From: Geoglobus acetivorans
GTDB taxonomy: Archaea > Halobacteriota > Archaeoglobi > Archaeoglobales > Archaeoglobaceae
NCBI RefSeq assembly: GCF_000789255.1
Contig: NZ_CP009552.1
Coordinates: 620,001-684,000, forward strand
Direction of reading: 5' to 3'
DNA length: 64,000 nt
Part shown: piece after piece, positions 1 through 16,086 of the stretch
Numbering within the stretch: position 1 is the stretch's first letter
Layout of the letters: every line of letters begins with the position of its first letter
Translations under genes and position numbers: made by a program
Notes under the pieces: generated by a model
What the model was told of the DNA's origin: nothing
The model's database searches: none
Seen by the model: the letters and a program-made list of their open reading frames with translations, nothing else

Positions 1-987
1 CAGATGAAACCTGACCGGAAAACTGAAAGTTTTCACTTCAGTGTTCTCAAACTCAAGCTCTCTGAGAAAATCAGAGTCTGAAACTGAGTTTTCCAGAGAT
101 TCAATCACGCCGTAAGGTATATCCTCTCCAAAGATGTCTTCGATTTCCCTTCTACTCATGTTCGACAGCCTTTCGGCAACCAGCTTTTCAATTTCTTCAG
201 CCCTTGCAAGCCTTTCCTCAAATCCAACATCTGCAAGCTCATCGAGACCCAGTCTCCTGCAGAATATCTCCCAGAACACAGGCTCGTCCAGAATTCCTAC
301 TGACACGTGGCAATCTCTCGCCCTGTAAATTCTGTAACCGGGATTGGCGTAAAAATCCCTGAGATGGGGCCTGCCATTCGCAGCCCTGAGAGCGTGCAGA
401 GGCACTGAAAACAGAGCCGAACCATACATGTCAACATCGATGTAAGCACCTCTCCCAGTCCTCATCTTCCTGATGTATGCTGACAGAATTGAAATTGCAG
501 CCATCACAGATGAAGTGTAGTCTGAGAACTGGACATTCGGATCCCTCGGAATACCCTCCGACAGCCCAGACACCTCACAGATTCCGGCCATGGAGAGAAC
601 ATTGATATCGTGAACGGGCCTTGTTATTTTTGAGTTCTGGCCAAAGCCTGTTATGGAACAGTAAATGAGCCCCTCATTGATCCTGCTCAGAGTTTCGTAG
701 TCAACACCCAGTTTTTTTGCGACCCCCGGCCTGAAGCCCTCAACCACAACATCCGCACTCTCAACAAGACGGTAGAATTCATCTCTGCCTTCTTCTGTTT
801 TCAGGTCAATTCTATGCAGTTCCTTCCCCGCGTTTATCCCCGCAAATATCTCGGGCCGGTATCTCATGGGGTCTCCGGATGGTGGTTCAACCTTCACCAC
901 TCTCGCTCCCAGGTCTGAAAGAATTTTGCAGCAGAACGGACCGGGATAGTAATACGCAAGTTCGATCACAAACATTTCCCCAAGCAT
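1..987 (-). CDS. CaiB/BaiF family CoA-transferase, C-terminus cut by window edge
   Basis: The frame is open from an ATG at 987 to the window edge, so about 329 residues are visible and the C-terminus is missing. The product begins MLGEMFVIELAYYYPGPF and carries the class III CoA-transferase pattern: the N-terminal substrate loop (PGPFCCKILSDLGARVVKVE), a GFGQ turn, and an aspartate in QFSDYTSSVMAA that matches the catalytic Asp of formyl-CoA transferase. Family members move CoA between carboxylic acids. The enzyme probably activates an acid for the divergent beta-oxidation genes. A second ATG at 975 is possible. A TATA box 27 bases before 987 suggests a leaderless message from 987. The substrate cannot be read from sequence. 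Confidence 0.85.
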   Translation of the reverse strand, partial: MLGEMFVIELAYYYPGPFCCKILSDLGARVVKVEPPSGDPMRYRPEIFAGINAGKELHRIDLKTEEGRDEFYRLVESADVVVEGFRPGVAKKLGVDYETLSRINEGLIYCSITGFGQNSKITRPVHDINVLSMAGICEVSGLSEGIPRDPNVQFSDYTSSVMAAISILSAYIRKMRTGRGAYIDVDMYGSALFSVPLHALRAANGRPHLRDFYANPGYRIYRARDCHVSVGILDEPVFWEIFCRRLGLDELADVGFEERLARAEEIEKLVAERLSNMSRREIEDIFGEDIPYGVIESLENSVSDSDFLRELEFENTEVKTFSFPVRFHL

Positions 988-3472: not shown

Positions 3473-4333
3473 ATGAACGTTGAAGATGTTAAAAGGGTTG
3501 GAGTACTCGGCGCTGGAACCATGGGTGGAGGAATAGCCCAGGTATGTGCGATGGCAGGTTATGAGGTGGTGCTGAGAGACATAGAAGACAGATTCCTCGA
3601 AAGGGGGCTTGCCAATATAAGAAAAAGTCTTGAGAAGTTTGCAGAAAAGGGCAGGCTGAACGAGGATGTTGAGACGATAATGGGCAGAATAAAGCCCACA
3701 ACGAAGCTTGAGGATCTCGCAGATGTGGATGTCGTGATTGAGGCAATAATTGAGAACATGGATTTGAAAAAGGAAACGTTCAGACAGCTCAGCGAGATCG
3801 TGAAGAGGGAGGATGCGATTTTCGCTTCGAATACCTCCACGCTCAGCATCACAGAAATGGCATCAGTTACGAGGAAGCCGGAGAACTTCGTGGGCATCCA
3901 CTTCATGAACCCCGTCCCGGTGATGAAGGGAGTTGAGATCGTCAGAGGGCTGTTAACGAGCGACGAAACCTTAGAGTTTGCGGTTGAGTTCACGAAGAAG
4001 CTTGGGAAAGAGCCAGTTGTCTGCAGGGACTCTCCGGGCTTCATCTCCAACAGAATCCTGATGCCCTGGATAAACGAGGGAATCTGGGTGCTTTACGAGG
4101 GTGTTGCGACGAAGGAGGAGATAGACAGGGGAATGAGACTCTTCACAAACGTTCCGATGGGGCCGTTAGAGCTTGCCGACCTGATTGGCTTAGACATCTG
4201 CCTTGCTGCAATCGAAACCCTGCACAGAGAGCTCGGAGACAAATACCGCCCCTGCCCCCTGCTCAAGCAGATGGTTCAGGCGGGATTGCTCGGAAGGAAG
4301 ACGGGAAGGGGCTTCTACGACTACAGCAAGTGA
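3473..4333 (+). CDS. 3-hydroxyacyl-CoA (3-hydroxybutyryl-CoA) dehydrogenase
   Basis: A 286-residue NAD-dependent 3-hydroxyacyl-CoA dehydrogenase. The Rossmann dinucleotide motif [11 protein letters not shown] is at residues 13-23. The catalytic His is in [19 protein letters not shown], and the C-terminal domain carries [18 protein letters not shown] and a closing [11 protein letters not shown]. It oxidises 3-hydroxyacyl-CoA to 3-ketoacyl-CoA. AGGTGATGGG before the ATG supports the start. It is the last gene of the operon and is followed by a T-rich stretch. It resembles the free-standing Hbd type, unlike the fused paralogue at 36119-38098. Confidence 0.93.
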
Positions 4334-4352: not shown

Positions 4353-4398
4353 ACAGAAATCTATTTTTCAATAATTTAAAGATTATTCCCTCATTACA

Positions 4399-4690
4399 TT
4401 TAATGCTGACGTTACTATCCTTTCAATTCTCCTGGCATCCCATAGAGTGTATGCTGCGATTCTGAAATACATCGAGAAGGTACTGAATGTATGGAGGCAC
4501 CGGAATTATTGTCCATCCCCACTTTTTAGCATAGCAGAAACGGCAGCACTTCGGTGAATCCTTCCATTCACAATTGACCTCCTTTTGCTCAAAAACCCCG
4601 ATAAAATCATTCCTGCAGGAATGTCCTCGAGTTATGTCCGATTGTGATTGCTGCACCACCTGCACAGCTCAGGAGTTTTGGCACTATCAT
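4399..4690 (-). pseudogene. Decayed C-terminal copy of the glycine-zipper secreted protein
   Basis: Read on the minus strand, this stretch encodes AKKWGWTIIPVPPYIQY in one frame and YFRIAAYTLWDA in the next. The intact protein at 6460-7317 ends with SKSFSWVTVPVAPYV followed by YFRVASYTLWDA. The two matches are in the right order and spacing but need a frame change near 4480. Further upstream, around 4620-4690, a Gly/Ala/Ile-rich segment may be the remains of the glycine zipper. It is best read as a frameshifted remnant of a third copy of the secreted-protein family. The 80-residue open frame at 4423-4665 is part of it and is probably not a gene. Confidence 0.6.
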
Positions 4691-4698
4691 CACCCTCG

Positions 4699-5055
4699 TC
4701 AAAACTCTTTGGAACGGCTTTCAAGTTGCCTCTCCTCAAGGCTTTTCAGACATCTTGCACCGCAAACTGGAGGGAGTGTGAAAGCGAGGAGCAGCTGAGC
4801 AAGGTAGAGAAAGTTCCACACGAACGTGAAAAAACCATTAATGTTGAAGGGAGATACCACAGCCAGCATCCCGGACACAAATATGGGAATAGCGAACAGC
4901 TTCAGGCAGATTTTATCTTTACTCAGCATGTACAGCACAATCAGCAAAATTTCCGAGAGAACTACGGAGGAGTAAACGAAACTCTCAAAAACGGCGTAGA
5001 AGAAAAATACAGTGTTCAAAAAAATTATGGAGTAGATGATTGTTGTCTTCCGCAT
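4699..5055 (-). CDS. Small membrane protein, partner of the 5059-5940 secreted protein
   Basis: A 118-residue hydrophobic protein with about three predicted membrane segments: IIYSIIFLNTVFFFYAVFE, a segment around VVLSEILLIVLYML, and two adjoining stretches near LFAIPIFVSGMLAVVSPF and FFTFVWNFLYLAQLLLAF. It starts 3 bases after the stop of the secreted-protein gene, so the two are almost certainly co-transcribed. I recognise no family. The layout copies the neighbouring pair (6460-7317 with 5995-6426), so an immunity, anchoring or export role for the secreted partner is a reasonable guess, not a demonstrated function. Confidence 0.6.
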   Translation of the reverse strand: MRKTTIIYSIIFLNTVFFFYAVFESFVYSSVVLSEILLIVLYMLSKDKICLKLFAIPIFVSGMLAVVSPFNINGFFTFVWNFLYLAQLLLAFTLPPVCGARCLKSLEERQLESRSKEF

Positions 5056-5058
5056 AAT

Positions 5059-5940
5059 TTATCCTCTGCTGAACTCCAGATGGGCAGTATAGCTGTCAGA
5101 TAGCTCAATTGTGTGAAACTCAACGCCAGCTAACGCCACATAGTTTATCTTGTAGTCTACATCAACTGCGCCTGTATTTGGAGTTACATCATCGCCAATG
5201 TGGAATACAGTACCACTCGTTGCTCCATCACCGAACAAGATTGCCGGCTGATTCAGTGTGATGCCTTCTGTCTGAATATCGAAGTAAACCGATGAGTCAA
5301 CGTAGCCAGTCCCGCTCAGGTCTATCGAACTCGATGGTGAAATCTCTGTGATGATTGTCGTGTCAAATGTCCACGTGGCAATCTTGATCCCAAAAACATT
5401 GTATATGTCAAAAACCCTATGGAAATTTTTGTAATCAGACCAGTGAACGGCTAACGAGGAAATGCTATTCTGACTCTTCTCAACAAAAGTGGCAGCATAG
5501 AACCACATGTGTGAATCAAAGACAACGTTACCTGTGTTCAGATCTATAATAGCAATAGATTCTGAACCTTTCGAGTCGTTCCACTCAACCTCAGCCAAAA
5601 TTGTATTGTCTAGCTTTTGTGCTTTTAAGTAATCTTCTATCGCCTTTAGGACCATTTGCCTTTTGGTTTTGTCGAGTTTGGTGACCTTATCTACTTCATT
5701 TAGTGCATAGGCAACTGCTTTTGATATTGCATAAGATTCGTTTACTGGTTTCCATAGTCGATTTGATTTTGAGTGCATGTGATATATTGGCCTTGCTTTT
5801 GTAGATTTTAAAGATTTCTCTGCAACAACATGCAGATCCTTTGATAGTCTTCCGGTTGTCATAGGTGCTGCAGCCGTCACCGGACTCACTACGCTACCCA
5901 CCATCACCAAAACCAGCAACACCGCTACGGCTCTTTTCAC
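5059..5940 (-). CDS. Secreted protein with MKRA-type signal peptide, unknown function
   Basis: A 293-residue protein with a clear Sec signal peptide (MKRAVAVLLVLVMVGSVV, probable cleavage after TAA near residue 24). The mature part has a charged alpha-helical half with DKTKRQMVLKAIEDYLKAQK, then a beta-rich C-terminal half rich in Ser, Thr, Val and Asp (DLSGTGYVDSSVYFDIQTEG). No cysteines or catalytic motif stand out. The signal peptide and the promoter closely match those of the 6460-7317 gene, but the mature parts do not resemble each other. GAGGTGACG before the start supports it. A membrane-protein gene follows after 3 bases. I do not recognise the family. Confidence 0.7.
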   Translation of the reverse strand: MKRAVAVLLVLVMVGSVVSPVTAAAPMTTGRLSKDLHVVAEKSLKSTKARPIYHMHSKSNRLWKPVNESYAISKAVAYALNEVDKVTKLDKTKRQMVLKAIEDYLKAQKLDNTILAEVEWNDSKGSESIAIIDLNTGNVVFDSHMWFYAATFVEKSQNSISSLAVHWSDYKNFHRVFDIYNVFGIKIATWTFDTTIITEISPSSSIDLSGTGYVDSSVYFDIQTEGITLNQPAILFGDGATSGTVFHIGDDVTPNTGAVDVDYKINYVALAGVEFHTIELSDSYTAHLEFSRG

Positions 5941-5970
5941 CGCGTCACCTCAGAAGGCATTGAACATCAA

Positions 5971-6002
5971 ACTATTTATTATCTAAAAAGTTAATTACAA
6001 AC
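5971..6002 (-). promoter_or_regulatory. Promoter of the 5059-5940 secreted-protein cassette
   Basis: On the minus strand this holds GTTTGTAATTAACTTTTTAG followed by an AT-rich TATA stretch (ATAATAAATAG), about 30-60 bases before the ATG. The same GTTTGTAA...TTTTTAGA element, at similar spacing, lies before the paralogous secreted gene (7369-7390). It also covers the last codons of the preceding membrane-protein gene. Confidence 0.5.
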
Positions 6003-6426
6003 GTTTGATTAGGCAGATTGCAAGCGTAACCAGATATCCCATTAAAACAGTTGCAAAGGTACTATTTGGTTGTCCAAGTTCAAACGACTGTTGCAGAATG
6101 ACCGACATGCTGAATCCGAACAGACTTAGGATTACCAGAACGCTCAGCCATACGCCAAAACCCAGAAGCAAACTCCTCAAAACTTTAACGTCTGACGCCT
6201 TATTTGTAAAAATGTAGTGTCCCAGCACAAGATAGAACACCAACAACCCGTCAGACAACCACACGAAAACGTCGTTGGGTGGTATCTTGAGGACTGAGGT
6301 TCCGTGGATGGCATATTTTTTTGCAAAAAAGAAACTTTGGATTAGGAGAATCATGAAAATCCAGATGTAGTACAGCAGCAGTCCAAATAACATTCCAGCA
6401 GCATCAAATCTGCTGAATCTACTCAT
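5995..6426 (-). CDS. Four-helix membrane protein, partner of the 6460-7317 secreted protein
   Basis: A 143-residue protein with four hydrophobic segments: MLFGLLLYYIWIFMILLIQ, WLSDGLLVFYLVLGHYIF, SLLLGFGVWLSVLVILSLFG and FATVLMGYLVTLAICLI. It begins 33 bases after the stop of the glycine-zipper secreted protein, on the same strand. No family is recognised. In position and size it matches the membrane partner of the second cassette (4699-5055), although the two do not look alike in sequence. An immunity or membrane-receptor role is inferred from context only. Confidence 0.6.
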   Translation of the reverse strand: MSRFSRFDAAGMLFGLLLYYIWIFMILLIQSFFFAKKYAIHGTSVLKIPPNDVFVWLSDGLLVFYLVLGHYIFTNKASDVKVLRSLLLGFGVWLSVLVILSLFGFSMSVILQQSFELGQPNSTFATVLMGYLVTLAICLIKRL

Positions 6427-6459
6427 TTTTTATCCCCAATTTATAAAAAAATTAAGAAT

Positions 6460-7317
6460 TTAAGGGTTTCCAATTCCGAGTGCATCCCATAATGTATAGG
6501 ATGCCACTCTGAAATAATTTGGCACCCATGCGACATAAGGCGCTACTGGTACTGTTACCCAGCTAAAGCTTTTTGAGAACCAGAACCATATACTTCCGTG
6601 CTCATCAAGGAGCATGTTTGACAAATCTGCTCCAAACCAAAGTGCTAATACTCCCCCCACTATTCCTCCGACTACACCACCAACTCCGCCTCCAAGCACT
6701 TCTCCAACAATTCCTCCAATAACCGCTCCTGCTACTACTGGCGGCAATCCTGCTATTTTCTGTGAGTTGTAATCCGAGATGTGGTAATGTACCAGCTTGT
6801 TTCCAGTAATGTAGCTGTCGTCCCAAGGTTCTATCCGATAGTATGCATAGTCTGGATGAGGATACTTGACACCGTACCATTTTACGAACTTCACACCGTC
6901 CCACCAGTAGGAATAGGAGAGTATCCTGATGTTCGCAACGCGTTTGCTATTTTCAGACAGCAGCTTCTTCGTAACGTTTGAATCCAGTGGGTTATACTTG
7001 GACTCGTACTTGTTGACGAGTCTCCCTTTGCTGTACACTTCGATAGTGTATTTACCATTGTTTTCACTCACCCTGTATTCGAATATGTATGTCTTGCCAG
7101 TTTTGAGATCCTTAATTTCTAAATTGGCTTTTGTTAAGTTTTTGTTGCTTTTCAGACTTATTAACACATTGTTCACTTCAACAACTGTTGATGTCCTTGA
7201 CTTCTCTCGGAGGATCAGTTTGACATGTGTTCTCGTGACTTCTGTATTTGCCATTGCTGGTGTTATTACGCTTCCAAGCATCACTAAAACCAGCAGCACC
7301 GCCAGTGCCCTTTTCAT
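6460..7317 (-). CDS. Secreted protein with glycine-zipper hydrophobic segment
   Basis: A 285-residue product from the ATG at 7317, chosen because it has a GAGGTTGATG site just upstream and starts directly with the signal peptide MKRALAVLLVLVMLGSVITP. A longer frame to 7350 would put 11 charged residues before the signal. The N-terminal half is soluble and Lys-rich. From about residue 195 there is a long Gly/Val/Ile run (VAGAVIGGIVGEVLGGGVGG and onward) with repeated GxxxG spacing, then an aromatic C-terminus (FWFSKSFSWVTVPVAPYV...YTLWDALG). Glycine zippers of this kind occur in pore-forming toxins and in membrane-inserting linkers. Its C-terminus is the parent of the pseudogene at 4399-4690. 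Function unknown. A secreted antagonistic peptide precursor is one possibility. Confidence 0.7.
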   Translation of the reverse strand: MKRALAVLLVLVMLGSVITPAMANTEVTRTHVKLILREKSRTSTVVEVNNVLISLKSNKNLTKANLEIKDLKTGKTYIFEYRVSENNGKYTIEVYSKGRLVNKYESKYNPLDSNVTKKLLSENSKRVANIRILSYSYWWDGVKFVKWYGVKYPHPDYAYYRIEPWDDSYITGNKLVHYHISDYNSQKIAGLPPVVAGAVIGGIVGEVLGGGVGGVVGGIVGGVLALWFGADLSNMLLDEHGSIWFWFSKSFSWVTVPVAPYVAWVPNYFRVASYTLWDALGIGNP

Positions 7318-7344
7318 TTCATCAACCTCAAAATCAAGTGAGAG

Positions 7345-7422
7345 TATCATATATTTATTAATTTCTATTCTAAAAATTTTAGTTACAAACTAAACTGTTT
7401 AGTCACCAGCTAAACTTTTTAG
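7345..7422 (-). promoter_or_regulatory. Promoter and repeated TAAAC sites before the glycine-zipper gene
   Basis: A TATA box (minus strand AATAAATATATGATA) lies at about 7343-7357, roughly 30-40 bases before the ATG. Upstream of it come the shared GTTTGTAAC...TTTTTAGA element, then a near-perfect palindrome CTAAACTGTTTAG at 7390-7402 and another CTAAAC at 7410-7415. The spacing upstream of the TATA box suits an activator site more than a repressor site. Function inferred. Confidence 0.45.
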
Positions 7423-7665: not shown

Positions 7666-8088
7666 ATGAAAAAACACCTACTCCCGATAGTCCTGCTACT
7701 CCTCATCCATATTGCAAGGGCTGACGTTATTTTCCCGCTCACATTCGTGTTCATCCCATACATACCCATCATCATTCTCCTCGAGGTGTTAGCATTTCTT
7801 GCTCTCAGGGAAAGGCTTGGACTGGAAATTCAGGCTGGCAGAGGCATTCTGGTCGTTGCAATAGCCAACATCATAAGTTCAGCTGCAGGACTGGTTGTTC
7901 CCGGTCCGTACAAATCTGCAATAGAAATCTGGTTCCTCTCCGCCTACGCCCTATCCACGCTGATTGAGGGAGTCATTTACAGAGTTGGAATGGGGAAGAG
8001 CGCAGTGAAAAGTGTTCTCCTCTCAGCAATTCTTAACGCTGTCTCGTACGCTGCTGTTCTTGTAGCAATAATAACGAAGATGCTCTGA
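7666..8088 (+). CDS. Small polytopic membrane protein
   Basis: A 140-residue protein that starts with a signal-like segment (MKKHLLPIVLLLLIHIARA), followed by three hydrophobic stretches: VFIPYIPIIILLEVLAFLAL, ILVVAIANIISSAAGLVVPG and the C-terminal VLLSAILNAVSYAAVLVAII. The start follows a TATA-like box at leaderless distance. I recognise no family. It stands alone, with convergent neighbours downstream and the accessory cassettes divergent upstream. Confidence 0.6.
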   Translation: MKKHLLPIVLLLLIHIARADVIFPLTFVFIPYIPIIILLEVLAFLALRERLGLEIQAGRGILVVAIANIISSAAGLVVPGPYKSAIEIWFLSAYALSTLIEGVIYRVGMGKSAVKSVLLSAILNAVSYAAVLVAIITKML

Positions 8089-10844: not shown

Positions 10845-10994
10845 ATAAAAATTTTATTTTTATTGATTCCTAATCATCATGACAATTATTTATATGCTTG
10901 TTGCACAGAAGTGAAACATGTTACAGATACACATGTCAATAAATCTTGAACATTTATATCTCATCAAAAATCATTGGAGTATGAGGTGCAGAAA
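10845..10994 (+). promoter_or_regulatory. Terminator-like run and promoter before the TasA-like cluster
   Basis: The left end carries AAATAAAAATTTTATTTTTA, a T-rich self-complementary run suited to ending the winged-helix transcript. Further on, two ACATGT palindromes (10916-10921 and 10931-10936) sit 9 bases apart. A TATA-like CATTTATATCTC lies at about 10950-10961. GAGGTG at 10983-10988 is the ribosome binding site for the ATG at 10995. The paired ACATGT sites could be an operator. Confidence 0.45.
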
Positions 10995-11594
10995 ATGAGA
11001 TGGATAGTGGGTGTGTTGATGGTGGCCCTGGTAGGGCTGGTGATTGGAGCGGGAACGTTTGCGTACTTCAGTGATACGGAGACGAGCAGTGGGAACCAAA
11101 TTACGGCTGGGACTTTGGAACTCAAACTTGGAGATGGTGCAAATACATGGTACGACGATCCAAACATACCCAGTTACACTGTCACGAATGTCTATCCAGG
11201 CTGGAGTGATTGGCTTGACTTCTATGCCAAGAACTTTGGAAGCATTGATGGCGACCTATATATGAAAGTTACATATACCGAAAGCACTGGTGATAATACC
11301 GAGGCGGAGGGAAGCCCAGATGATGCCGTTTTGGACGATAACCTCTGTGTTGCAGTTACTTTGGACGGAACTTCCTTTGATCTGAGTACCTACGACACCA
11401 ATAGTGATGGTTGTGTTTCGCTCTCAGAGATTGCCAACCAGTACATCTTACTTGGAGACCTTACCGGAGGAAATTCTATGCACATAAAGATCGATGTGAA
11501 TATCCCGACAACAGTCGGAAACGAGATCCAGGGAGACACGGTGACTGTCAATGTCGAGTTCAAGCTAATGCAAGACGGAATTTTACCATCCTAA
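10995..11594 (+). CDS. TasA/camelysin-like secreted filament subunit 1
   Basis: A 199-residue protein from the ATG at 10995 (GAGGTG upstream). It has the SipW-substrate N-terminus: a membrane segment IVGVLMVALVGLVIGAGTFA, then YFSDTETSSGNQITAGTLEL, the hallmark of TasA, camelysin and archaeal bundling pilins. The mature part is beta-rich. An Asp-rich loop YDTNSDGCVSLSEI (about residues 129-142) looks like an EF-hand calcium loop. Family knowledge: a dedicated signal peptidase cleaves before the YFSDTE motif and the subunits polymerise. The signal peptidase is three genes downstream. Probably a main or minor filament subunit on the cell surface. Confidence 0.8.
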   Translation: MRWIVGVLMVALVGLVIGAGTFAYFSDTETSSGNQITAGTLELKLGDGANTWYDDPNIPSYTVTNVYPGWSDWLDFYAKNFGSIDGDLYMKVTYTESTGDNTEAEGSPDDAVLDDNLCVAVTLDGTSFDLSTYDTNSDGCVSLSEIANQYILLGDLTGGNSMHIKIDVNIPTTVGNEIQGDTVTVNVEFKLMQDGILPS

Positions 11595-11631
11595 ACAATT
11601 AGTCATTTAATTTTTCAATGGGTGACCAGCG

Positions 11632-12411
11632 ATGCGAAGCGTTGCAGCGGCTCTCATCCTCATCAGCCTTGTGCTCGCAGGAGCTGGCTACGGTACATGG
11701 GCAATCTATCAGGACACTGAGACGAGCAGTGGAAATTATGTTCAGGCTGGAACGTTGGACATATACCTGACAGACCATACAACCGATGCAAACCAGCAGT
11801 GGCTTGTTCTCAACTCGTATCCAAGAACTGATGAAGATAATCCGGGCCAGAGCAGTTGGATGGGGTCTGGACAGATAAAGGTTCACAACGACGGTAGTCT
11901 ACGGGGAGACCACATAGAGCTGGCTTTCAAGTTCAAATGTTACGAGGACGACGACGGCGATGTATTCGTCAGCCCGACGTATCCATATGACTTTACATAT
12001 GACTCATCAAAACACACCATCGGCCCAGAATCAGATACCAACCAAAGTGGTATAGGAGATTGGTTGAAAGAGATTAAACTCACAAAACTAAACTATGGGC
12101 TCTCCTCCAACAGAGAGACTACGTACAACTTGCTAAACGGATTGTGCATGGCAGACGGTGATTCAGAATGCACAATGAACGATTTGGCGTTGTCTGTTAT
12201 TAAACTGCCATCAGATTACACACCGCTTACGGACGGCAATGAGTACGGTCTCATCCAGATGGATTTCGAGATTATTGACACAGGAACGCCCCAGAACGAC
12301 TGGCAGGGCGATGTCTGCGAACTGATAGTGCAGGTTGCATTGGCCCAGGATCCAAGCCAGACGGTCCTTTCGCCGGGAGGGGTTGAGGTAATACTTCCGA
12401 GCAGCAATTGA
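11632..12411 (+). CDS. TasA/camelysin-like secreted filament subunit 2
   Basis: A 259-residue protein with the same N-terminal plan as the gene before it: signal segment MRSVAAALILISLVLAGAGY, then IYQDTETSSGNYVQAGTLDI. The mature part is acidic and beta-rich, with an Asp-rich stretch CYEDDDGDVFVSPTYP and a C-terminus VALAQDPSQTVLSPGGVEVI. The ATG follows GGTGACCAGCG. It is 37 bases after subunit 1 and probably co-transcribed. The larger size suggests a different filament role, such as a tip, base or minor subunit. That assignment is inference. Confidence 0.8.
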   Translation: MRSVAAALILISLVLAGAGYGTWAIYQDTETSSGNYVQAGTLDIYLTDHTTDANQQWLVLNSYPRTDEDNPGQSSWMGSGQIKVHNDGSLRGDHIELAFKFKCYEDDDGDVFVSPTYPYDFTYDSSKHTIGPESDTNQSGIGDWLKEIKLTKLNYGLSSNRETTYNLLNGLCMADGDSECTMNDLALSVIKLPSDYTPLTDGNEYGLIQMDFEIIDTGTPQNDWQGDVCELIVQVALAQDPSQTVLSPGGVEVILPSSN

Positions 12412-12428
12412 TCACAGCAGAGATCAGC

Positions 12429-13019
12429 ATGAAGTCCATCAAGAAATTTTCAATTTTTTTTGTGATCTTGCTGGCTATCTTGCTGCAAATTCTCAGCCAG
12501 ACTTACGCCCTGAACCCCCATTACTTCGCACCATCTGCCACAGGCTATCCTGATCTCTGCTTCGTTGTGGATGGCAACACAGCTCAGCAAGCCCCACCGT
12601 TTCTGAGAGCATCAAACTTCAGGCCGGGAGATTACGCCGAGGGTTTTCTAACGCTGAAAAACTGTGGAACTGGTAAGTCAAGCTTTCTCAGCATCTCGCT
12701 GAGCTACTACGGCTTCACCGACCCAAACTCGGATAGCAGCCCGGAGGGTTTCCTTTCTGCCATTGAGATCACAGATATGTCCTTGGGTGAAAGCGGAAGT
12801 CCTGTGTGGAGAAATCTGAAAAACTACATCGAGGACGTGAACAGTAACGGCAGAATAGACCTGCACGACCTCTCACTGTTCCCTGTAAACATCCAGTACA
12901 CAATCAATCCGGACGATGGTAGAGAATTCTACATAAAGGTAAGGTTTATACCGGATGCCGGCAACGAGTATCAGGGAGACAGCATAAACCTGAGCTTCAC
13001 GTTCACAATCGGGGGTTGA
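12429..13019 (+). CDS. Secreted protein of the TasA-like cluster with dockerin-like loop
   Basis: A 196-residue protein from the ATG at 12429. An in-frame TTG at 12408 overlaps the preceding stop but adds only seven residues before the signal. The signal peptide is conventional (KKFSIFFVILLAILLQILSQ, cleavage near TYA). It lacks the YFSDTE motif. The mature part resembles the other subunits in its beta-rich segments (GYAEGFLTLKN-like, and a final EYQGDSINLSFTFTIGG close to the EIQGDTVTVNVEFKL end of subunit 1). It contains DVNSNGRIDLHDLSLF, a dockerin/EF-hand-like calcium loop. Probably an accessory or assembly component. Confidence 0.7.
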   Translation: MKSIKKFSIFFVILLAILLQILSQTYALNPHYFAPSATGYPDLCFVVDGNTAQQAPPFLRASNFRPGDYAEGFLTLKNCGTGKSSFLSISLSYYGFTDPNSDSSPEGFLSAIEITDMSLGESGSPVWRNLKNYIEDVNSNGRIDLHDLSLFPVNIQYTINPDDGREFYIKVRFIPDAGNEYQGDSINLSFTFTIGG

Positions 13020-13021
13020 AG

Positions 13022-13549
13022 ATGAAGACCGGCATCCTCATGCTTGCGATCTCGGGAATGGCTCTCGTTTTCCTCGCATACACAGGCTTCACGTCAAGTT
13101 ATTTTTATGACACTGAAAAAGTTACGATTACACTGCAGGTCTATGCTCCTCAATCATCACACGTTGAGGTCGAAAAGCTGAGCGACTGCCCCTTTAACCA
13201 CTGCAGTGAATATTTCTGCGTGAGGCTGAAAAATACAGGAGATGCAAGCGTCACCCTTGTGGAAATTGAAGGTGAGAGCCTTCAAAAGCTGATTGCGCTC
13301 AACGGATCGGGTGGTGAGATTTACGACAGCAGTAATGAGAAACACAGCCTGAGCATCACAGTTCCGCCCTTTTTCAGTGATGAGGACTACATTTACCTTG
13401 CCCTCAAGTTTGGTGAACGCTGCTCAGAGAAGCATGGCATGCACGGAAAGGATAAAGAGCATGAGGATAAGCATGATGAAAAGCACACGGTCAGGCTGAA
13501 GTTTTCGGACGGTTCAGAGCTGAAAGTTGAATTCGAGAGAGGTGATTGA
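13022..13549 (+). CDS. Membrane-anchored or SipW-processed protein with His-rich tail
   Basis: A 175-residue protein from the ATG at 13022, placed after GGGGGTTGAAG and overlapping nothing. The N-terminus TGILMLAISGMALVFLAYTG, then SSYFYDTEKVTITLQVY, repeats the signal-plus-YFxDTE plan of the TasA-like genes, so it may be processed by the next gene's peptidase. It has two cysteine pairs (LSDCPFNHCSEYFCVRL and GERCSEKH). A charged run, EKHGMHGKDKEHEDKHDEKH, near residues 138-157 could bind metal. The product is probably a cell-surface component. No exact family recognised. Confidence 0.65.
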   Translation: MKTGILMLAISGMALVFLAYTGFTSSYFYDTEKVTITLQVYAPQSSHVEVEKLSDCPFNHCSEYFCVRLKNTGDASVTLVEIEGESLQKLIALNGSGGEIYDSSNEKHSLSITVPPFFSDEDYIYLALKFGERCSEKHGMHGKDKEHEDKHDEKHTVRLKFSDGSELKVEFERGD

Positions 13550-14392
13550 TTGTCAAGGGTGATTGCAGTTGTATCCACCACATTATCCGCGGTTTTTCTT
13601 CTCGCCTTTCTGACTTTCAAACCTGCAGCACTTATAGTGCTGAGCGGGAGCATGGTTCCAGTGATATATCCCGGAGACATAGTCCTGGTTTTTGAAAAAA
13701 ACCCTGAAGAGCTGTCCGTAGGGGATATAATCACATTCAGAAGCCCTGATGGGAGGGAGAACGTTCTCATAACCCACAGGATAATAAACATAACGAAAGA
13801 AGACGATGGAAGCCTTGTTTTCAGAACGAAGGGGGATGCTGTGGAGGAGCCAGACCCCTTCACCGTTCACGAAGACGATATTGTCGGCAGCCCCGGAATT
13901 CTCATTCCGATGCTCGGATACCTGCACGAGAAAAGGGAGATCACGTACTTTGGACTCATACTGATACCGTCTGCCATCATAATGGCACAGGAACTCAGGA
14001 TACTCGCGAACCCCACGGTAAGCGAGAGAGAAGAGGTGAGGAAAAAAAGACTCTCAGAGAGGAGGAGGGGTGTTTTCAGATGGCACAGGCTTTTGTTTGT
14101 CACCTCAGCATACACAGCCCTTTTCTCAGCACTGTTCTGGATATCTGCCAACACCAACCTGCCGGTGCAGAAGGCAGAGTTTGTCAACGGAAGCTGGTTT
14201 GTTGCGGAGAATTTTGACCCATACAGCATGATTTATATAATTCCTCCATTCTATATCGAAAGGCTCGGATTGAATCCACTCATCGTGCTTGGCATCTATA
14301 CAGCATTCTGCACGCTGATTTCGATTCCACTGTGTATCGAGAGGAGGAGAAATGCATGGAAAAGAAGAAGATATGGCTTGCTGTTTCGCTGA
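13550..14392 (+). CDS. SipW-like signal peptidase I (S26B)
   Basis: A 280-residue protein starting at a TTG with AGGTGA seven bases upstream. The membrane segment is at residues 5-23. The catalytic motif LSGSMVPVIYPGD gives Ser34. VLITHRI gives His76 in the place of the bacterial Lys, as in SipW and archaeal/eukaryotic Sec11. The third block TKGDAVEEPDP gives Asp96 and Asp102. A long C-terminal extension with two further membrane segments (LLFVTSAYTALFSALFWISA and LIVLGIYTAFCTLISIPLCI) is unusual for a housekeeping peptidase. Position after four secreted genes argues for a dedicated processing enzyme. Confidence 0.88.
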   Translation: MSRVIAVVSTTLSAVFLLAFLTFKPAALIVLSGSMVPVIYPGDIVLVFEKNPEELSVGDIITFRSPDGRENVLITHRIINITKEDDGSLVFRTKGDAVEEPDPFTVHEDDIVGSPGILIPMLGYLHEKREITYFGLILIPSAIIMAQELRILANPTVSEREEVRKKRLSERRRGVFRWHRLLFVTSAYTALFSALFWISANTNLPVQKAEFVNGSWFVAENFDPYSMIYIIPPFYIERLGLNPLIVLGIYTAFCTLISIPLCIERRRNAWKRRRYGLLFR

Positions 14393-15324: not shown

Positions 15325-16086
15325 TCAATCAACGCCGAGCAGCGACCTCACGAGATTCTCCCTGGACCACTCCCCTCCGCTAAACCTTTCAAACATCATT
15401 GCCTTCTCGCCTGCCTTACCGAAAACCTCTGCGTAGATCTCCATATATGACTTTCCTCTTTCATAAAGCTCCAAACACCTCTGTCTCAACCACTTGAGGT
15501 AATTCAGGTACTCCTCGACCTCTTCTCTGCGGTATATTCCATGCCCTCCAAACGCAATCTCGAAATCATGATTGAGCAACCTCTCCAGGGATTCGATGAT
15601 CTGAACATATCTCTCATACCTCAGAGCCACGGATACCCTCTTTGCTGCAATCAGATCCCCGATGAAGGCATAACCATCCAGAATGTAAACAACATGATCC
15701 CGGGAATGTCCAGGAGTGTAAACGAACTCTATTTCAGGTTCCCTGAACCTCTCGGCGGGAATCTGTTCAACCTCTCCCCATACCAGCTTCCGGTAGTCAG
15801 GTATCTCAAATCCTGATGAAAGAATTTCAGCCGTGGCCTTTCCTGAATAGATCACATCAAACAGTCCCGCATTTCCAGAGTGGTCTTCGTGGTGGTGGGT
15901 GAGATAAACCGAATCACAGGCTCTCTTCCCGAAATATTCTCTTATTTCGTCCCTCACATTTGAACATCCTGAATCGAAAACGAGGTCTGAATAAGCGTAG
16001 AATGACGTTGTGAACACCACTCTGCCTCCAACCTCTGCCCCAACTTCAATCCGCTCCACATCCCCAATCCTTTCGGTTGCAAGCAT
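15325..16086 (-). CDS. Metallo-beta-lactamase-fold hydrolase
   Basis: A 253-residue MBL-fold protein. The metal-binding motif HHHEDHSGN lies in VYLTHHHEDHSGNAGLFDVI, a second His is in VYTPGHSRDHVVYI, an Asp in YAFIGDLIAAKR, and a late His in IAFGGHGIY. This set supports a di-metal hydrolase such as a glyoxalase-II-like or thioesterase-like enzyme. The substrate is unknown. I chose the ATG at 16086, which directly follows the polB stop (TGATATG), over an in-frame TTG at 16107. The gene is therefore coupled to polB. Confidence 0.8.
   Translation of the reverse strand: MLATERIGDVERIEVGAEVGGRVVFTTSFYAYSDLVFDSGCSNVRDEIREYFGKRACDSVYLTHHHEDHSGNAGLFDVIYSGKATAEILSSGFEIPDYRKLVWGEVEQIPAERFREPEIEFVYTPGHSRDHVVYILDGYAFIGDLIAAKRVSVALRYERYVQIIESLERLLNHDFEIAFGGHGIYRREEVEEYLNYLKWLRQRCLELYERGKSYMEIYAEVFGKAGEKAMMFERFSGGEWSRENLVRSLLGVD

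Follow-up and report, generated by a model that had tools for sequence, protein, structure and literature searches.

The window analysed here is a stretch of 64,000 nucleotides (nt) from the archaeon Geoglobus acetivorans, whose genome is a single contig of 1,860,815 bases. Between positions 4399 and 7442 it carries two head-to-tail cassettes on the minus strand, in each of which a gene for a secreted protein (P1 or P2) is followed by a gene for a protein with four transmembrane (TM) segments, hereafter the partner (Table 1). These cassettes had been predicted from the window to follow the pattern of bacteriocin/immunity systems, and all four of the open reading frames (ORFs) then described were confirmed. 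In transcription order, 33 nt separate the P1 gene from its partner, followed by a gap of 54 nt and then by the P2 gene, which lies 3 nt from its own partner. Each partner displays four hydrophobic segments and P1 and P2 each display one N-terminal signal segment, while neither secreted protein contains a cysteine. Flanking the cassette region are a gene for a conserved membrane protein (7666-8088) and one resembling 3-hydroxyacyl-CoA dehydrogenase genes (3473-4333).

Table 1. Features of the cassette region (window positions unless a locus handle or residues are given; aa, amino acids).
Feature	Position	Strand	Remark
Tandem operator array (class A) upstream of P1	7370..7442	-	CTAAA-N3-TTTAG 13-bp palindromes, 20-nt pitch
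P1, secreted, 285 aa, proposed toxin	6460..7317	-	
P1 parts	residues 1-23; 24-130; about 155-285		signal peptide; N-domain; C-terminal part
P1 partner, 4-TM, 143 aa, proposed immunity protein	5995..6426	-	
P2 5′ module	5880..5982	-	remnant operator unit, ribosome site, signal-peptide codons
P2, secreted, 293 aa	5059..5940	-	GTG start
P2 partner, 4-TM, 118 aa, proposed immunity protein	4699..5055	-	
Orphan frameshifted 3′ remnant, G025-type P1 C-terminus	4435..4539	-	92.4% DNA identity
Second-class operator sites	L052:11329-11383; L057 about 16017-16072; L058; L059; L134; L166:4601		

Scans of the cassette proteins against Pfam and NCBIfam gave zero curated families above cut-off, and searches of PHROGs, PADLOC, and PDB sequences returned nothing credible, in agreement with the original prediction, in which no family had been recognised. 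The weak Pfam matches of P1, among them hits on glycine-zipper families and one on a family of C-terminal toxin domains, fell below the curated cut-offs and were left unused. An origin as an anti-phage defence or phage gene was likewise rejected, with no match in PADLOC and only weak matches to families of unknown function in PHROGs.

Homologues of the cassettes were sought in 55 Archaeoglobaceae genomes and, by profile search, in 394 genomes of the phylum. Full-length P1 homologues occur within the family in G028 (76% identity), G025 (78%), G006 (71%), and G040 (56%), each with a homologue of the P1 partner directly downstream. An earlier scan of named genomes had returned Archaeoglobi only; the phylum search ruled out that P1 is confined to the Archaeoglobaceae, as full-length homologues were found in a second family, f5 (G180, G320, G383, G369, G103, G345, and two in G168; E values of 1e-57 to 1e-87). 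All 13 of the 13 full-length P1 loci (five in Archaeoglobaceae, eight in f5) adjoin a 3-4-TM protein of one family, which lies upstream of the P1 homologue in G168 and G345 and downstream in the others. In G383, the secreted gene spans L176:4922-5869 and the 4-TM gene 4360-4782. Absence of the pairing from every relative had been named as an outcome that would speak against the original prediction; instead, the pair stands together in every full-length P1 relative found, across two families. The occurrence of P1 is nevertheless patchy, even inside one genus. P2 and its partner were found together again in G030, a member of the Geoglobus group (80% and 78% identity, respectively), and the P2 partner is present without P2 in G026. 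The payload body of P2 shows 89.5% identity to its G030 counterpart; relative to G030, it lacks about 333 nt in frame, and P2 may be partly deleted.

The affinities of P1 change along its length. Against G025, identity is 96% in the N-domain, 57% in the C-terminus (residues 182-285), and 35% in the partner, whereas against G028 the corresponding values are 60%, 88%, and 78%. The same reversal is seen at fourfold-degenerate sites, where P1 and G025 are identical at 33/38 sites in the N-part and 10/29 in the C-part, versus 10/24 and 38/50 for P1 and G028, and the pattern is therefore ascribed to recombination and not to differential constraint. Judged by these identities, P1 is a recombinant of two lineages, with the crossover at about residues 130-165. 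Partner identity follows that of the C-terminus (r = 0.98) and not that of the N-domain (r = 0.15) across 10 Archaeoglobaceae pairs, which are non-independent. With f5 included (12 loci), the Mantel correlation of partner with C-terminus is 0.81, and the partial correlation is 0.66 for the C-terminus given the N-domain and 0.29 the other way round. On this comparison, the 4-TM partner is inherited together with the C-terminal half of P1.

A third copy, surviving only as a frameshifted C-terminus, had also been described in the original prediction. A frameshifted C-terminus is indeed present (Table 1), but it is of the G025 type and not a copy from P1: it matches the C-terminus of a G025-type P1 (L051:9090-9193) at 92.4% DNA identity over 105 nt, versus 80% over only 35 nt for the P1 of the window, and this far better match ruled out an origin from P1's own C-terminus. 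The remnant stands just ahead of a gene that also comes after the cassette region in G025, and it is apparently an older toxin tip that was displaced. In the simplest history, both the P2 cassette and a G028-type C-terminus with its partner would have been gained by a G025-like ancestral locus, and the former C-terminal tip would have stayed behind downstream as an orphan. Bacterial CdiA and Rhs loci are known to contain such displaced tips. The P1 locus shows several of the features by which polymorphic toxins are recognised, namely a conserved N-part with an exchanged C-part, a downstream gene that tracks the C-type, and an orphan C-terminus.

Orphans are also common among the partners. The partner family is found in 47 of the 394 genomes and full-length P1 in about a dozen, and most of the 20 partner-only loci that we inspected have no recognisable P1-like ORF nearby. 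In G156 (L184), a decayed toxin lies next to an intact partner, and in G366 (L182:649-1293) an intact partner adjoins a 73-aa ORF that comprises little beyond the C-terminal tail of P1 and may be either a relic or a minimal peptide form. G345 carries tandem groups of the partner family (L198:2655-4016, L199:2159-3632), with secreted proteins bearing dockerin-like ends nearby. If the partner serves as protection from neighbours, surplus immunity genes without a toxin are to be expected. The strict adjacency of C-terminus and partner, and their coevolution, would fit any obligate complex, including a physiological membrane complex or channel whose two components coevolve through contact only. 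We consider such an explanation highly improbable, however, given a partner that is far commoner than P1 and also stands in tandem groups, and given the patchy occurrence of P1 noted above.

The near-identity of the two signal peptides, noted in the original prediction, was borne out at the DNA level (75% identity over 67 nt between P1 and P2) and extends far beyond the window. A 24-aa signal query found matches in 37 of the 55 family genomes. In 314 pairs of signal genes with unrelated bodies, the median distance from the start codon to the point where the shared 5′ DNA stops is 67 nt (interquartile range 60-75). This coincides with the signal-peptide end, and the shared DNA often extends into the promoter. 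Signal cores on different payloads are more similar within genomes (0.64) than between them (0.52; permutation p about 5e-4). Over 104 nt, the 5′ segment of P2 (5982-5880) shares 94% identity with the corresponding segment of a phospholipase C-like gene in G025, while the G030 homologue of the P2 body lacks that signal. The same signal and promoter on other payloads, a pattern that the original prediction had proposed looking for, is abundant; the payloads include a zinc phospholipase C (E = 9e-9), a C39-like peptidase with a Spi-type prodomain, and halocin C8-domain proteins above the curated cut-off. As read from these alignments, one 5′ module (operator/promoter, ribosome site, and signal peptide) is common to unrelated payloads. 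A small protein with at least three TM segments follows 24 of 53 signal genes versus 20 of 294 control genes (p = 3e-11). Also in the window's genome, a signal-peptide gene at L164:3817-4822 (about 31 kb) is split by a frameshift, and its G025 counterpart (L165:4061-5065) is intact.

The hydrolase-like payloads, together with the absence of a polytopic neighbour from about half of the signal genes, fit a more mundane explanation, in which these are ordinary exoenzymes or surface proteins that came to share an efficient signal peptide and promoter through gene duplication and conversion, and the membrane proteins are export or membrane helpers. This would leave unexplained why the partner tracks the C-terminal half of P1 and not its N-domain, as well as the orphan C-terminus and the orphan partners, and P1 itself carries no enzyme signature; we regard it as quite improbable for the cassettes of the window.

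The promoter sequence described as common to the two cassettes (GTTTGTAA...TTTTTAGA) proved real and covers roughly a single unit of a tandem operator array, termed class A. The array upstream of P1 (three matches, versus 0 in 100 dinucleotide shuffles) is the sole such array in the 1.86-Mb genome, and a single decayed unit is left upstream of P2. In relatives, class A arrays precede several kinds of gene: the G025 and G028 homologues of P1, phospholipase C genes at L054, L058, and L155, genes of the halocin C8 type in both G005 and G006, and a Cys-rich relative in G017. At L056:8194-9434, a Cys-rich halocin-like secreted protein, which falls below the halocin C8 cut-off, and its 4-TM neighbour stand under an array of this class. 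A winged-helix gene with a FilR1_middle domain (PF08350, E about 1e-31) adjoins the array in G003, G005, G006, G007, G017, and G025, and arrays occur in 13 of the 15 genomes with a close FilR1-family homologue versus 5 of the 40 others (p = 5e-7). This co-occurrence indicates that the tandem operators are probably bound by the FilR1-family winged-helix regulator encoded beside the array in relatives. The window genome contains only a distant relative of this regulator and, by comparison with those genomes, has lost the close homologue of its gene. In genus g12 (L159, L160, L161, L162), a short array has a phosphatidylethanolamine-binding-like gene on one side and a winged-helix regulator gene on the other, and its position ahead of the latter suggests autoregulation. 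A second operator class, the inverted repeat TTCTGACCAT...ATGGTCAGAA, is found upstream of other signal-peptide cassettes (Table 1) and replaces the class A array at the P1 homologue of G006. At L052, L057, and L166, this second-class operator adjoins an operon of a small secreted protein and a membrane-anchored double winged-helix regulator.

The secreted proteins and their partners might also be matching parts of a variable surface recognition device (self/non-self or kin) that does not kill. In Thermococcales, VARTIG modules are built by recombination and pair hypervariable secreted proteins with membrane proteins, encoded downstream, that match them and track the subfamily. They have no identified toxin domain and look much like the loci described here; self/non-self or kin recognition is one option proposed for them (PMC8416519). 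P1 similarly lacks a recognised toxin domain, and some P1 homologues bear extra C-terminal domains. A recognition device sits less well with a 5′ module and operator array held in common with halocin C8-domain proteins, phospholipase C, and proteases, and the persistence of partners without the secreted protein fits immunity better than a two-part receptor. We therefore think a role in recognition unlikely.

We instead favour the interpretation that each cassette encodes a Sec-secreted toxin and a membrane immunity protein within a modular arsenal, which is probably correct. Several observations weigh against it. Neither P1 nor P2 contains a toxin domain recognised by Pfam or NCBIfam, the AlphaFold models are poor (mean pLDDT, the model's own confidence score, of 48 for P1 from three sequences and 46 for P2 alone), and a Foldseek search with the low-confidence P1 model found no match at E<=0.001 and was set aside. 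G006, a draft metagenome-assembled genome, has an intact toxin but a frameshifted partner, and the extra C-terminal domains on some f5 homologues are unlike a simple bacteriocin. Many of the signal genes without a polytopic neighbour have a 1-TM neighbour and others have none, some payloads of the 5′ cartridge are enzymes and possibly mere nutrient scavengers, and the phospholipase C homologues of G030 and G023 share 81% identical C-termini but have unrelated partners. The bacteriocin/immunity pattern of the original prediction gains its support from a partner that tracks the C-terminal toxin-like region, while the killing itself, like the toxicity and immunity of both pairs, we infer from comparative genomics.

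By sequence, P1 contains a strongly hydrophobic stretch (residues 191-229), one third of which is glycine, followed by a Trp-rich C-terminal tail with the near-invariant pattern LDE-G-IW-W...Y-R...TLW. This stretch is a putative hairpin that would likely form a pore. P1 would be exported, and its N-domain would be a prodomain or a carrier. The glycine-zipper hairpin of the C-terminal part, together with the Trp-rich tail, would then enter the membrane of competing archaea, producing the pore. The 4-TM partner in the producer's membrane would stop its own toxin type, as do the 3-4-TM immunity proteins of pore-forming colicins. P2 and its partner would form a second pair, whose payload is perhaps partly deleted.

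On a wider scale, the loci may represent a modular archaeal weapon system, not described before, in which one regulated cartridge of promoter and signal peptide serves many unrelated payloads (a glycine-zipper pore former, the halocin C8 type, phospholipase C, and protease), each with a membrane antidote. C-terminal toxin-immunity units would be swapped and orphan tips left behind, and P1 would belong to a new family of pore-forming protein archaeocins in Archaeoglobales and a second family; we hold this broader proposal with about even confidence. To our knowledge, archaeal antagonism is poorly known, and few weapons of archaea other than the halocins and the sulfolobicins have been put to the test. 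The P1 pair offers a defined toxin-immunity candidate in hyperthermophiles, and the cartridge and the regulator of the tandem operators offer a route to many further candidate effectors among genes whose annotation is still hypothetical. Elsewhere in the window, we noted by eye secreted proteins (10974-14392, plus strand) whose start, FSDTETSSGN, is typical of fibre proteins of the TasA/camelysin type, followed by a SipW-like signal peptidase (13550-14392, plus strand).

Pore-forming colicins offer the closest parallel to the proposed mechanism, with P1 having a candidate for their hydrophobic glycine/alanine-rich hairpin near its C-terminus, an adjacent small polytopic gene, and a partner specific to the C-domain. 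Unlike colicins, P1 is archaeal, carries a Sec signal peptide, is about 285 aa in length, and shows no sequence similarity that we could find; no receptor or translocation part was recognised in it, and no release by lysis is apparent. In 2019, Makarova et al. reportedly predicted polymorphic toxins in archaea as well as an expanded halocin C8 family (cited in PMC8416519). We found no paper on the cassette family in Archaeoglobales, in a comparison that left out the candidate list of the mBio 2019 archaeal-toxin survey. Halocin C8-domain proteins of the same archaeal family share the signal-peptide type and a small multi-TM neighbour with the cassettes and, in G006, the operator array, and P1 and P2, like halocin C8, are secreted precursors with an N-terminal signal peptide. 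Membership of P1 in halocin C8 was rejected, as the window genome has no match to TIGR04449, for which 6 of the 55 family genomes score above cut-off. For classical halocin C8, the immunity function is described as residing in the same gene (Sun et al. 2005, as cited in PMC12893001). VARTIG modules are similar in combining a variable secreted protein with a matching adjacent membrane protein and in being built by recombination, but they are defined by Ig domains, none of which scored above cut-off here (Pfam, NCBIfam), and the common 5′ module described here is used by toxin- and archaeocin-like payloads. Finally, as in CdiA and Rhs polymorphic toxins, the N-part of P1 is kept, its C-part is exchanged together with the cognate partner, and an orphan tip lies downstream. 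P1 differs from these toxins in being short and Sec-exported, with no domain for delivery by a type V, VI, or VII secretion system or by PVC found in Pfam or NCBIfam, and in that the exchangeable unit here is also the promoter and signal peptide, which stand on wholly unrelated payloads.

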